This document shows, one piece after another, positions 391-56,500 of a stretch of DNA of 64,000 nt (the stretch's first letter is position 1; the number at the start of each line of letters is the position of its first letter). The notes under the pieces are model-generated. The model was not told where the DNA came from. It saw only the letters and a program-made list of their open reading frames with translations, and did no database searches. This DNA is from Closterium sp. NIES-65 (taxonomy: Eukaryota > Streptophyta > Zygnematophyceae > Desmidiales > Closteriaceae). The stretch is from assembly GCA_948144175.1 (NCBI GenBank), contig CANXME010001999.1, positions 488,501 through 552,500 of the forward strand, in the 5' to 3' direction. The position numbers were made by a program, and so were the translations under genes.

Positions 391-3300
391 TTACCCCGTA
401 GCTTCTTCCAGTAGCTGTTTCTCAACAGCCATTCTCCGAGCCACCATATCCCCGTACCTTGCGTGCAGGTCCGGGGATCCGGCAGGGATTGCTTCGGAAA
501 GAGACACAGCGCTAGGGGCTGCTGCTGATGTGGCACCTTCTGCAGAGGCACTTGCTGAGCTGGCACCTGCAGAGGTGGCGCTTGCTGAGGTGGCACTTGC
601 TGAGCTGGCACCGGCTTGAGCCAGGAGGGAGGTGAAGGGGAGAAAGGAGCCTTGGGTGTGGCAGAGATAGCCGTGTGCTGCTCTCAGCGCTGCTCCCAAC
701 GAGGCAGAGTCTGGAGATGGGAGGGAGGAAAAAGGGTGGGAGGCAGGTTAAGGGGCATGTGGGGGAAAAGAGCGATGAGAGGGTGGCGTGGGAAGGCAGA
801 GGTAGCCGTGTGCTGCTCTCAGCGCTGCTCCCAGCGAGGCTGAGTCTGAAGAGGAGGGAGAGGAGATGGGGTGGGATGGGATGGTTGGAAGCAAGGAGAG
901 GAATGAGAAACGAGAGGGGGAGAGAGGAAGGAGCCTTGGGTGTGGCAGAGGTAGCCGTGTGCGTGCTGCTCTCAGCGCTGCTCCCAGTGAAGCGGAGTCT
1001 GGAGATGGGAGGGAATGGGAGGAGATGGGAGGAGATGGGAGGAAATGGGAGGAGATGGGAGGAGATGGGATGGGGAGATGTGAGGAAAAGAGTGAGAGGA
1101 GGATGGCATTGGAAGGCGGAGGTAGCCGTGCCATGTGCTTCTCTCAGTGCTGCTCCCAACGAGGCAGAGTCTGGAGTGGGGAGGAGATTGGAGGAGTTTG
1201 GAGAAGATAGGGGGAGACGGGAGATGGGAGATGGGAGATGGGAGATGGGAGATGGGAGGGAAGGAAGGAAGGAGGAGAGAAGTGAGCGAAGAGAGACGAG
1301 AGAGAGAAAGGAGGCGCGGGTTTGGCAGAAGTATTCGTGTGTGTTGCCTTCTCCCAACGAGGCAGAGAATGGTGATAGGAGGAAATGGGAGGAAATGGGA
1401 GGAAGGTGTAAGAGAGGAGGTGATGTTAATCATTAACCCAAATGACACACATGTAAAACGAGGAGGTTTTTGAGATGCTATGATTACAGAAAAAGGGACA
1501 GATGATGCGAACAGGTGTCTGGGGGCAACATTCGCAGCTTGTATGAATCACCTGTGGTTGCGGAGGTATACACTGGGCAGCCAAAAACATTTGCCATGGT
1601 GCGCAAAATTGCCTCATTGGCTGAGCCGCCACCCGTGGCAATGATCCGGGCAGGTGGACTTTGCAACCCGATTCTCTCCGCATGCCCTCTCATTGACACC
1701 AACTGCCCTTCCACCAATGCCCTGATCTGTAAGGCATAGTGAGAATCATGGAAGTGGGGGGAGAGGGATGAAAGGAGCACGAGAACCAAGTGGTTTTGGA
1801 GTCCAATTCTCTCTGCATGCCCTCGCATTGACACCAGATGCCTTTCCACCAATGCCCTGATCTGTGGGGGGGGGGCGGGGATCATGGAAGTGGTGGGGGA
1901 AGGGGAGGTAGGAAGGGAGGTAAGAGGCTTTGCAGCCTGATTCACTCCGCATGCCCTCGCATTGACACCAGATGCCTTTCCACCAATGCCCTGATCTGTG
2001 AAACAAAGAGTGAAGAATAACAAATGAACGACAATTGATGGGGGCCGCCGAAGGAACAGGAATCAAGAAAACGGAGAACCTTCAGCGGAACAGGAACCAA
2101 GAGCAACGGAACAAACATACTGCAGCGAGTGTTTTTTGAGAATTCTCAAAAAACCCTCGAAGGAACAGGAATCAAGAAAACGGAGAACCAAGAGCAACGG
2201 AACAAACATACAGTGATTCTATCGCTATCTGCCCCTTCATTATCCGCCCCTCCATTATCCGCCCCTTCATTATCCGCCCCTTCATTATCCGCCCCTTCAT
2301 TATCCGCCCCTTCATTATCCGCCCCTTCATTATCCGCCCCTTCACTATCCGCCCCTTCACTATCTGCCCCTTCACTATCCGCCCTCTATCACCCCTGTGC
2401 AAGCAAGGTTACCTCTTGTGGTGGTTCGAAGGTTTGATCAGAGGAGAGGCGAGTGAGAGAGTCGTCCCCACCCTGCCTTGGTGAAAAGCGATGGGTCCCC
2501 ACTGTAAGGATGCGGCAAAGGGGCGATGAGATAGGCAGAATGTTGATGAGTAGAGAGAGAGGATTACTCTTGAAAGCCCGTTCAGCCTTGAATAAGTTAC
2601 TCACGCCCTCTGTTGGTGAAAAGCGATGGGTCCCCACTGTAAGAAAGGGGGACAGCACAGCACAGGGGAGAGGTATGGGACAGGTGATCCATCCGTATGG
2701 GACAGGTGATCCATGGGATGGGACAGGTGATCCATGGGATGGTACAGGTGATCCATCCGTATGGGATGGGACGGATGATACCAGAGATGGGATGGCATGA
2801 TGGCATCTGAGTCAAATGCTACTTAGGTGACTTTTGAGTCGACTCAAAATATGGCATGATGGCATCTGATTCAAATGCTACTTTGGGTAAGTATGTAAGA
2901 GTGTAAGCAGCTCCACCTTATGATTGCTAGTGGAGGGATGATCTCTGGGTCGAGATAGTGGAATCTCAGTCGGCCACCTGCCCAGCCCATGCACCCAGCT
3001 GCGCAGCCCATTCACCGAGGTCGTTTTTGAGGCGCCTCAAAAACGACTCCAGCTGCCCAGCCCATGCACCCAGCTGCCCAGCCCATGCACCCAGCTGCCC
3101 AGCCCATGCACCCAGCTGCCCAGCCCATGCACCCAGCTGCCCAGCCCATGCACCCAGCTGCCCAGCCCATGCACCCAGCTGCCCAGCCCATGCACCCAGC
3201 TGCCCAGCCCATGCACCCAGCTGCCCAGCCCATGCACCCAGCTGCCCAGCCCATGCACCCAGCTGCCCAGAGGAAGATTGAGTACCTAACAAGGTCGTAA

Positions 3301-53500: not shown

Positions 53501-56500
53501 CTGACCCATCATGCCTTTCGCGAAAGAGTCCGTGGCCCGCATGGCCTTGAATGGCACCGCCATGAGAGAGGTAAAGAACTCCGCCACCCCCCACCACTCC
53601 TCATCCATCACAGCAGCCCTGAATTTCCCAGCTGCTGTCTTCCTATCCTTGTCCGCCGCTGCCCACACCTTCCACTCGTCGCGGAGCACCATCGCCGCCA
53701 GCCCACTCCTCACCTCACATAGCCGGGCCATGGCTATGTATTGTGTCCCGAACCTGGTTCCCGCAGGCTTGAGCACCTGCTTCCCCCCCACTTTCTTCAT
53801 ATAGGCACGGGTAAAGTGGTGGTTGCGCACGAAGGTAATCATCTCCCCTCTTTTCTCCACAAGCCTCTTCGCCCATCCCATTTTGCCCATATCTTCCATC
53901 ATCAGGTCCAGGAGATGCGTGGCACATGGCACATGCTCAATGTGCGGCCATGTGCTCGCAATCCTCTTGGCGGCCGATGCAAAGTTGCTGCCGCCATCGG
54001 TGCAGACCGCCACCACATTCTCCGGCCCCACCTTATCAATGACGGGGCGGAGAAGGCTGGCGATGTACCCCCCGGACTTCGACTCCATGTTGCAGTCCAC
54101 CGCCTGCTCGAAAACTGCGCCGGAGTCGTTGACAAGGAGTATGTTGGCCTGCGGGCGGCCACAACGGTCGGTCATCATGTCCGACGACACCGTTACCCCG
54201 TCCCGCTTCCAGCTCGCGGCAACGGGGGCGAACGCGACCTCCATTTTCTGCCGCACCTTCTTCAAGCCTGCCCCTCCAATGTAGCGCCTCTTAGGAGGGA
54301 CGTACCCAGGTCCAGCGCGCGCAATGCACTGGACCGCGTAGCGGAAGACCGGATCGTCCGCAATGCGCTCCGGAAGTTTCAGCGCCGCGAACAGAAGGCA
54401 AAACTCGTTATCCGCGTCCTCCTTGGCGCACGTCGCCTCATTGCCAAAGAAATCCGTAATTTTGCTATTTTTCTCCGGGTTTCCACTGACAGCGTCAAGC
54501 GCAGAGTGAATTGCAGCAGCGGCCGCCCCTCGCTTCAAGTCCTGCTGTTCCGCCTTGGTCTCGTACATGCCACGGACTTGATCGCGGACTGCCGTGGGCG
54601 CGTCCTTGCATTACGCCACAGCGCGCTTCTCCTGCCCTTTCCATGTCGCGAGATGGATTGCACAGCGGTTTGTTCCGCCCTCGAACTTCTTGCCACTGAA
54701 CTTGCACAGCTTGGGGTTGCCTTTGGTGTGAAACGGAATGAGGAAATGTTTCAGAATGGGGTGAGATAGTCCAGCCTCAACAGGATCCGTGTTGACGGTA
54801 GTAGAGCCATGGACAGAGGCTGGATTGTTGTTCGTCGAAGTACTAGGAGCTGAGCCCGACGCCATGGCGCACTACGTAAGTCTAACTAACGAAGAAGAGT
54901 GGAGAAATGCGGGAGGAAATGGAAGAGCATTTGCGCAACGTTGACCTATACGTGCAAACGATGGAAGAACATTTGAAGGGGGTGGTTGGGATTGAGAGGT
55001 TGGGTGGGGTGATGTGTGGTTGAGGGGGTGGGAAAGTTTGGATTTTGAAATTCGAAGTTCAGAAGTGGGGTTGGGCACATGAGTGAAGTCGCGGTAACAC
55101 TTCGCGACTTCGCACATCGTCGCGAAGTTTTTCAATTTCGGATTTTTTTTTTCGCCGGGCTGCCCGGCCGTATTTTCGCGAATTCAGAGCGTATCAGCGT
55201 ATCACGCATATACGCTAGCGAATATACGTGATACGCCAGCCTTTCAAGAGCGTATCTGCCAACATAGCCCAGGGGGCACATAAAACCAGCACATCCATAC
55301 ATCACCCTACCCCAGAGCACATACATACATTACCCTACCCTAGTCACATACATTACCATGAACAGGGGGGCGCATGCGGGAATAGAGAGCCCAAGATAGA
55401 TACGGAGTATGGTGCAACTCTCACATACTTACATCACCATGCATGCAGGCTACTTTTGAGACATCTCAAAAATACCCTTTATACACGTGGCCTCTTACAC
55501 ACTTACATCACCATGCATACAGGCCGCCACATACAGACATTACCCTCCCCGAGGGCACATAAATTACCGTGAATGAGGGAGCGCATGCGGGAATAGAGTA
55601 CGAGGTAGATTCCTGAGTACGGTGCATCTCTTAGCAGGGTGCTCCCCAATCCTCGATATAAACCTGTAAACATCCAATAACGACCACGCGTACACAATAT
55701 ACATGTCGAAAATGCACAATCGGTGTCTTTTCGTGACCATCAAGAATTGTACCGCAAAACAAAACAAAACATAACAGTACTAACAGAAAGGTAAGCTATT
55801 ACTGCAACAAAGTGCACGATAAATTGCCTTTACCTGCAATTCCTTCTGACCTGGCAATCGACATTAATCCTCCAAGCGTTCCTCTATAGGACTCTCCGCT
55901 CACTGCAGAAAACTGCACTGTAGAAAGGGGGACAGAAGAATTACACACACAAAGCAAGAGCAGACTGAAGATTGATCACCCCAGGTATCCCATTGTAAGG
56001 CTTTCCAATAGCAGCATAAAACTTCACTGCACTGTAGAAAGAGTGTTGCGTGAAAAAAGGTAATGCAAAAAGAATAGGATAGATTGTATTGCTGCCCAGG
56101 ACACAGCTGAAAACAGGAAAGTGAGAAAAGAAAACGTGAAATCACCCACACACTGCTGCACTGGGAACCAGAACAGCCAGGTGGAAACAGATACGGGGAA
56201 CAGCGCAGCAGCCGACAGCGATCGCGAAACCACGATGCTGCAGGTGTTGGTGTTACCACTAGGATGTAACACAAGAGCTCTCACTCACTTCCCCCCTTTT
56301 CCCACCCCCTTTACCCTTCCCCCCCAAGTTCCCCCTTCACCTCCATGCATGTCGTCACCACGGACACAGGGCACAGGGCACAGCAGCAGCAGCAGCAGCA
56401 GCAGCAGCAGCAGCAGCAGCAGCAGCAGCAGCAGCAGCAGCAGCAGCAGCAGCAGCAGCAGCAGCAGCAGCAGCAGCAGCAGCAGCAGCAGCAGCAGCAG

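Follow-up and report, generated by a model that had tools for sequence, protein, structure and literature searches.

We analysed a 64,000-nt stretch of DNA from the freshwater green alga Closterium sp. NIES-65 (contig CANXME010001999.1, positions 488,501 to 552,500; G000:C1701:488501-552500 in our assembly search), hereafter the window, with respect to a family of short palindromes, TTTTGAG-N4-CTCAAAA, many of which lie between two direct copies of neighbouring DNA. The window is nuclear DNA of Closterium, with intron-bearing nuclear genes and retrotransposons, in an assembly of 874 Mb. It was compared with 30 stretches outside it (364 kb in all, the window included; loci outside are named by stretch, L014, L019, L024 or L029), and the assembly itself was searched over 874,075,685 bases in 2400 contigs.

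A xylulokinase gene occupies the minus strand from ~10.2 to 0.4 kb (Pfam, and tblastn with Closterium xylulokinase). A xylulokinase exon matches a protein of Closterium sp. Yama58-4, a member of the C. peracerosum-strigosum-littorale (C. psl.) complex, at 93% over the part searched, and the palindrome sites from 2134 to 10104 all lie within this gene. Most of the xylulokinase coding blocks (394-10217, minus strand) are accompanied in adjoining introns by further partial tandem copies, one to four per block, some of which include the splice donor. Single exons are repeated at 22480-23460, 44200-45300 and 48820-49230, in a mitochondrial-carrier gene and another gene, the copies being set apart by short spacers that are G-rich or variable. 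The second gene, a repeated-exon gene at 44.2-45.3 kb that we take from its translation to be PLAC8-like, and the mitochondrial-carrier gene both contain exon copies with and without palindromes. The region is prone to short tandem duplication in general. An open reading frame (ORF) at 18226-19632, presumably AP2-type judging from a motif, has its closest relatives in Closterium sp. Yama58-4 (53% identity) and Naga37s-1 (35%). At 58038-58061, the palindrome TCAACCCTAAAATTTTAGGGTTGA consists of TTTTAGGG head-to-head, a sequence that we take to resemble a telomere repeat.

The palindrome sites of the window are as follows, where A denotes local DNA copied on either side of a palindrome and P the palindrome.

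2049-2211: A-P-A; A1 2049-2120, 24-bp palindrome 2131-2154 (core AATT), A2 2158-2211, which is without an 18-bp internal repeat present in A1
2792-2886: A-P-A; A1 2792-2827, palindrome 2832-2849 (TCGA), A2 2851-2886
2974-3094: A-P-A; A1 2974-3019, 28-bp palindrome 3020-3047 (GCGC), A2 3049-3094; A consists of units of a 21-bp minisatellite that runs on to the right
4303-4398: A-P-A; A1 4303-4337, degenerate palindrome 4338-4355 (TCGA), A2 4364-4398
5768-5785: family palindrome (GCGC, one arm mismatch) next to which its left arm is repeated over 10 bp; not flanked by direct repeats
7484-8358: array (A-P)9-A with a 90-bp unit and nine motif copies at 7556-8293 (eight perfect palindromes, one motif with core TCAA), A at both ends
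10048-10099 and 10156-10208: copies of the end of xylulokinase exon 1 around palindrome 10103-10122 (CTTTCGAGTCGACTCGAAAG), which lies 33 bp from the second copy
22223-22406: A-P-P-A; A 22223-22271 and 22358-22406, AATT palindromes 22311-22328 and 22339-22356
22382-22508: older A-P-P-A with palindromes at 22408 and 22447; a decayed form also at 47.82-47.96 kb
23856-24078: A-P-P-A with two GCGC palindromes that are mirror images (23946, 23972)
28952-28975: 24-bp palindrome, TGCTTTTGAGTCGACTCAAAAGCA, which recurs identically at L019:9653; without a long repeat at its flanks
44401-44488 and 44565-44652: exon copies with a 22-bp palindrome, 44519-44540 (AATT), in between
45868-46380: 233-bp duplication of two units, an ACGT palindrome in each (46016, 46249)
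48357-48417: A-P-A; A1 48357-48379, palindrome 48381-48398 (TCGA, one arm mismatch), A2 48395-48417
48923-49187: copies of a mitochondrial-carrier exon end with degenerate palindromes at 48986, 49074 and 49101 between them
49269-49482: A-P-A; A1 49269-49354, 46-bp perfect palindrome 49362-49407 (AATT), A2 49399-49482
49788-52406: array (A-P)n-A with a 65-bp unit and 40 near-palindromes at 49836-52387, right arm CTAAAA
55418-55524: A-P-A; A1 55418-55450, palindrome-like site 55454-55471 (core ACAT), A2 55492-55524; nested within a larger repeat, 55318-55387/55528-55598
61722-61768: two degenerate family sites without a flanking direct repeat

The palindromes form a high-copy family with fixed inner arms

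The unit is perfectly palindromic over 18-46 bp. Its inner arms are fixed (TTTTGAG and CTCAAAA), its 4-bp core is in most cases self-complementary, and its symmetric outer arms, of which one is often missing, vary by subfamily. Outside both arrays, exact arms occur at seven window sites (2134, 2832, 3025, 28955, 44521, 49376 and 55454), and 33 sites have at most three arm mismatches, where ~2-3 would be expected by chance. The core is self-complementary in 18 of the 33, and many cores at degenerate sites are not. An earlier, sequence-only reading of the window had described such palindromes with cores TCGA, AATT, GCGC or ACGT, and the palindromes proved to lie where it had placed them, with all four cores represented.

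With the arrays removed, the window holds ten perfect palindromes of at least 18 bp, where 60 dinucleotide shuffles average 0.2 and never exceed 2; exact motifs number seven, and no shuffle has one. The assembly contains 30,327 exact sites, compared with four for the reversed pattern used as a control. Together, the shuffles and the genome-wide control rule out a chance origin. A scan of viral contigs for TTTTGAGTCGACTCAAAA gave no matches.

Of 16 exact-arm loci in the window and the stretches outside it, 14 have a self-complementary core, against a per-locus chance of 1/16; the core is ACAT at 55454 and GCAC at L024:4169, and one array unit (7646) likewise departs, with TCAA. Seven of 14 exact loci stay symmetric for at least 3 bp past the 18-bp motif, where chance would give 1/64 per locus (binomial p = 7e-10), with outer arms TGAAATCAC (L014:5498), TACGTTGATTGAAC (49362), GTCGT (3020), TGGT (L029:6167) and TGC (28952 and L019:9653). 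The possibility that the inner arms are symmetric and otherwise free to vary is rejected, since the equally symmetric TTTCGAG-N4-CTCGAAA, to which window 10104 belongs, has just 32 sites genome-wide (control 4).

The 30-bp pattern AATCAC-P-GTGATT, which carries the L014 arm, has 48 sites on 38 contigs (control 0). Requiring one arm gave 171 and 207 placements, equivalent to 48 two-armed and 282 one-armed sites, the latter count being inflated by arrays (for example on C1083) and pooling mutation with end loss. Given one AATCAC arm, a chance match of the opposite arm is expected at about 1 site in 4096. Because the L014 arm recurs at 48 sites, we reject the idea that outer arms are copied from the target flank at each site; they are inherited. 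Palindromes of this subfamily also occur at 235-239-bp steps at C1757:91128-91635 and C2261:899675-900417 of the assembly (G000), perhaps as parts of one larger repeat unit.

Among 50 places listed from the assembly scan, 28 are solitary and 22 fall into seven clusters closer than 150 bp, with three regular arrays of 4-5 units (periods 37, 53 and 42; hand count). Since many listed sites are clustered, distinct loci are fewer than 30,327. Only 3 of 27 blindly chosen 10-kb stretches (one half masked) contain family palindromes with at most two arm mismatches and a self-complementary core (L014, L019 and L029), indicating that the window is unusually dense.

Direct repeats abut the family palindromes

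We took from the window and the 30 stretches every site that had a self-complementary core and no more than one arm mismatch; with arrays merged, these made 24 blocks. A block passed the direct-repeat test if it had a local direct repeat scoring at least 30 and separated from the motif by gaps totalling 40 bp or less; 16 of the 24 did so. With tandem arrays allowed, the corresponding rates were 16.5% for random positions and 15.4% for positions 200-1200 bp from the sites. A control that excluded tandem arrays and the surroundings of exact motifs gave 2.7% of 4000 positions in the palindrome-bearing sequences, compared with 11 of 18 single, non-array sites (binomial p = 1.5e-13); the screen against minisatellites applied to the control positions only. 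Site 3025 lies in a minisatellite, and its repeat is therefore less telling. Flanking repeats are thus more frequent than at random positions, and not equally frequent, the outcome that the sequence-only reading had named as counting against it. The direct repeats named in that reading were found at all nine places, with the extents listed above (for example 2049-2120/2158-2211).

Repeats at palindrome sites are ~16-100 bp long; over the 18 sites delineated, A is 18-102 bp and differs between sites. At 10104, 44521 and 49376, the repeats include exon copies. Outside the window, six of eight exact-arm loci have a repeat (L014:5507, the L019:4243 array, L019:9656, L029:6171, L029:6431 and L029:8454), the repeat at L024:4169 is weak, and L029:3689 has none. 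The L019:4243 array was scored by eye (16-20 bp common to both ends); it failed the formal test because the merged block included an adjacent palindrome.

Over the 364 kb, one of 14 perfect non-family palindromes of at least 16 bp (window 7123) has a direct repeat close by, compared with 12 of 16 family loci (13 with 44519, where the gaps are 54 bp; Fisher p = 2e-4). In this comparison, rows were counted by hand, simple-sequence palindromes were skipped, and array loci were judged from the merged-block test. Not counted among the 14 are window 23960, which has a family palindrome on either side, and L014:6861, a variant with TTTTAAG that is accompanied by direct repeats. We therefore reject palindromes in general as duplication hotspots, and conclude that the effect belongs to the particular sequence rather than to palindromes as such.

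Arrays and clean inserts

The arrays at 7484-8358, 49788-52406 and L029:8454 start and finish with A or a large part of A, and arrays contain n palindromes per n + 1 copies of A. Each unit of the two window arrays carries a palindrome or near-palindrome, in agreement with the once-per-unit arrangement first described for them. The arrays at 49836-52387, L019:4243-5143 and L029:8454-8985 have periods of 65, 63 and 64 bp and different A sequences. Adjoining the 65-bp array is a hAT-type transposase ORF (52688-54568, minus strand; DUF659 and Dimer_Tnp_hAT), around which CGCTAGCG motifs lie near 52452 and 55213.

Five loci outside the window delimit the inserted sequence closely.

L014:5507: A 47 bp (46 identical), 32-bp insert AAATCACTTTTGAGAATTCTCAAAAGTGATTT, wholly palindromic; the palindrome extends 2 bp into A on each side
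L019:9656: A 40 bp, 21-bp insert entirely inside a 24-bp palindrome
L029:6171: A 33 bp, 27-bp insert, of which 25 bases are in a 26-bp palindrome
L029:6431: array with a 42-bp unit composed of A (24-26 bp) and P (16-18 bp), A at both ends; the insert is palindrome only
L029:3856: A 21 bp, insert 21 bp

The insert is therefore palindrome only at L014:5507, L019:9656 and the L029:6431 array, and nearly so at L029:6171 and 3025. The palindrome edge lies 0-2 bp from the junction at L014:5507, L019:9656, L029:6171 and 3025. At 49376, the A copies are 87% alike and the 46-bp palindrome is perfect, an outcome with a chance of ~0.04 at equal divergence; the same computation gave 0.2-1.0 at eight other loci. 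The perfect palindrome amid diverged copies is no more than a hint of homogenisation or of a younger palindrome.

A possible pair of filled and empty sites is found within the window. Two segments, 22.36-22.62 kb and 47.82-48.08 kb, are paralogs of 75% identity. To their left, the 22-kb copy has two A copies around two AATT palindromes, whereas the 47.8-kb copy has one A and no AATT palindrome. The adjacent palindrome pair, 22408/22447, is decayed in both paralogs. Insertion predicts such a difference, this pair being the only one and not polarised. A second candidate pair, locus 10104 and 27.96 kb, was weakened by a 12-bp donor-like repeat that persists near 27.93 kb, so that the 27.96-kb copy may be a deletion derivative. 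Comparison of the 90-bp array with 25.9-26.1 kb was uninformative because the surrounding GC-rich stretch is missing from the latter.

Origin of the palindromes and their duplications

The palindromes, demonstrated here as a defined unit of high copy number with a dispersed long-armed subfamily, abutting direct repeats and (A-P)n-A arrays, are probably copies of a very small non-autonomous insertion sequence, abundant in the nuclear genome of Closterium, that duplicates its target on insertion. The sequence-only reading had offered two mechanisms, a mobile element inserting with long staggered cuts and a hairpin-forming site that promotes duplication of its flank. The former is better supported, given the 30,327 copies, the 48-site subfamily, the palindrome-only inserts, the (A-P)n-A arrays and the single-A paralog; the latter is disfavoured by the scarcity of close duplications at other palindromes. 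A replicated hairpin telomere is also rejected, because its flanks would be inverted rather than direct.

Insertion would take place into a break with two nicks ~16-100 bp apart. Fill-in of the overhangs would copy the segment A lying between the nicks, and a palindromic duplex joined between the filled ends would give A-P-A. End joining after complementary 3′ overhangs have been filled in is an established source of small tandem duplications (PMC8355091). Slippage or unequal exchange among the A copies would later produce arrays. The two half-sites would need to be recognised by a sequence-specific protein that acts as a dimer and is provided in trans. The lasting identity of the arms would be explained if a perfect palindrome forms a blunt duplex with a copy of itself.

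Several observations weigh against an insertion sequence. Seven of the 18 single sites fail the direct-repeat test (5768, 22339, 28955, 44521, 46016, 61751 and L029:3689), although 22339, 44521 and 46016 do have repeats farther off. In a flank test of 30 of the 33 window sites (9557, 9762 and 21042 were left out), there was no notable flanking repeat at 5768, 28955, 45437, 45496, 61722 or 61751, and only weak ones at 22005 and 24797. About 62 of 80 window repeat pairs with spacers of 12-110 bp are without a family palindrome and ~18 hold one; local duplications, exon copies included, thus also arise without a palindrome, and palindrome and duplication may be partly separate events. Extra bases lie beside the palindrome on one side at 2134 (10), L014:6864 (14) and 55454 (~20). 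Deletion between A copies in the 47.8-kb segment would equally leave a single A. No enzyme or autonomous partner was identified, and no search aimed at one was made; we know of no transposase with target duplications so long and variable.

It is doubtful that the palindrome was never inserted and is instead a cleavage or fragile site, cut by a nuclease, with repair duplicating the neighbouring DNA and repeated cutting producing arrays. The inner half-sites, at fixed spacing round a 4-bp core, do look like the site of a dimeric protein, and a cut in the self-complementary core would leave 4-nt cohesive ends. One-palindrome-per-unit arrays recur, including the three regular ones among the 50 places listed, and could grow like the multimers of KolobokP, (LTDR-INT)n-LTDR with a homing endonuclease, for which endonuclease-induced unequal crossover is proposed in the portion of PMC9587614 considered. 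However, duplication of one flank at a pre-existing site should yield A-P-A-P rather than A-P-A, palindrome-only inserts and dispersed long-armed copies require insertion, and the origin of 30,327 copies is left unexplained.

We consider it improbable that two processes are at work, one making the duplications when staggered breaks are repaired (CST and Pol alpha-primase fill-in, paired nicks), the other bringing in the palindrome as junction filler or as a later insert. We retain this explanation mainly because the region is generally prone to short tandem duplication, as in the partial copies of most xylulokinase coding blocks. Tandem duplications born of breaks are established (PMC8355091); the hand-counted ~18 of 80 local repeat pairs with a family palindrome are in keeping with separate events, and the contrast at 49376 is as if the palindrome were younger than its flanks. 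Random capture, however, would not yield one fixed sequence 30,327 times, and later insertion would not put the palindrome edge 0-2 bp from the junction at four loci.

It is hardly credible that the palindromes are selected intronic or regulatory signals that duplications simply carry along: their inner arms are strictly fixed and many window palindromes lie within gene spans (xylulokinase, mitochondrial carrier and the repeated-exon gene), but carried signals would be expected inside the copies, one each, rather than between them at n palindromes to n + 1 copies.

Relation to known systems

REP palindromes of bacteria are 20-40 bp long, occur in many copies and are mobilised in trans by RAYT (Y1 HUH) transposases without target duplication. 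The Closterium family is like them in short size and copy number, and unlike them in host and in target duplication. Miniature inverted-repeat transposable elements (MITEs) and terminal-inverted-repeat DNA transposons are elements of 50-600 bp with an interior, and their target duplications are 2-11 bp, fixed by family. They resemble the Closterium palindromes in being non-autonomous, inverted-repeat and high-copy. The terminal inverted repeats have their counterpart in an insert that is itself an inverted repeat, without interior, whereas A is neither short nor constant (18-102 bp, varying by site). Retrotransposition of LINE, SINE and Penelope elements gives target duplications of variable length, as seen here, and loses one end of the element. 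The Closterium insert differs in being a few dozen bases long and palindromic, and the delineated inserts have neither a 3′ tail nor a small-RNA-gene body; no Rfam family was found in the window at gathering score.

KolobokP forms similar multimers, (repeat-insert)n-repeat, but its direct repeats are part of the element, ~450 or 660 bp long, as described in that portion of PMC9587614, whereas A in Closterium is local target DNA that differs at each locus examined. The nearest described thing is the GC clusters (GC42) of yeast mitochondrial DNA, which, in the part of PMC4478555 considered, are likewise very short, palindromic, mobile and non-autonomous, merge and diversify, and move by an unsettled mechanism. 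The Closterium family shares with them short size, palindromic structure and dispersal; it is nuclear, whereas GC clusters are mitochondrial and GC-rich and duplicate a target AG. Neither long flanking duplications nor (A-P)n-A arrays are described in that part of PMC4478555.

Literature searches naming Closterium returned, in the text that they covered, no report of this palindrome family, and the string ‘palindrom’ is absent from the searched portion of PMC10407611. PMC13419823 does no more than cite the Closterium paper. The searched portion of PMC10407611 reports six assemblies and a more than twofold difference in genome size between C. psl. strains, attributed to copy-number variation.

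It is possible, and we put it forward tentatively, that the palindromes represent a wholly new class of mobile DNA, whose unit, perfectly palindromic over 18-46 bp and lacking an interior, duplicates tens of base pairs of target, spreads through a self-restoring hairpin or homoduplex, and seeds minisatellites. Such a hairpin or homoduplex route would keep the arms identical while the outer arms and core vary by subfamily. If insertion and duplication are one event, this would be a mobile element the size of a PCR primer, with some 30,000 sites. To our knowledge, it would be smaller than any known nuclear element, with target duplications outside the range of known transposases. Some minisatellites would arise directly from it, since (A-P)n-A arrays would grow from A-P-A, and so would local duplication in the C. 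psl. complex.

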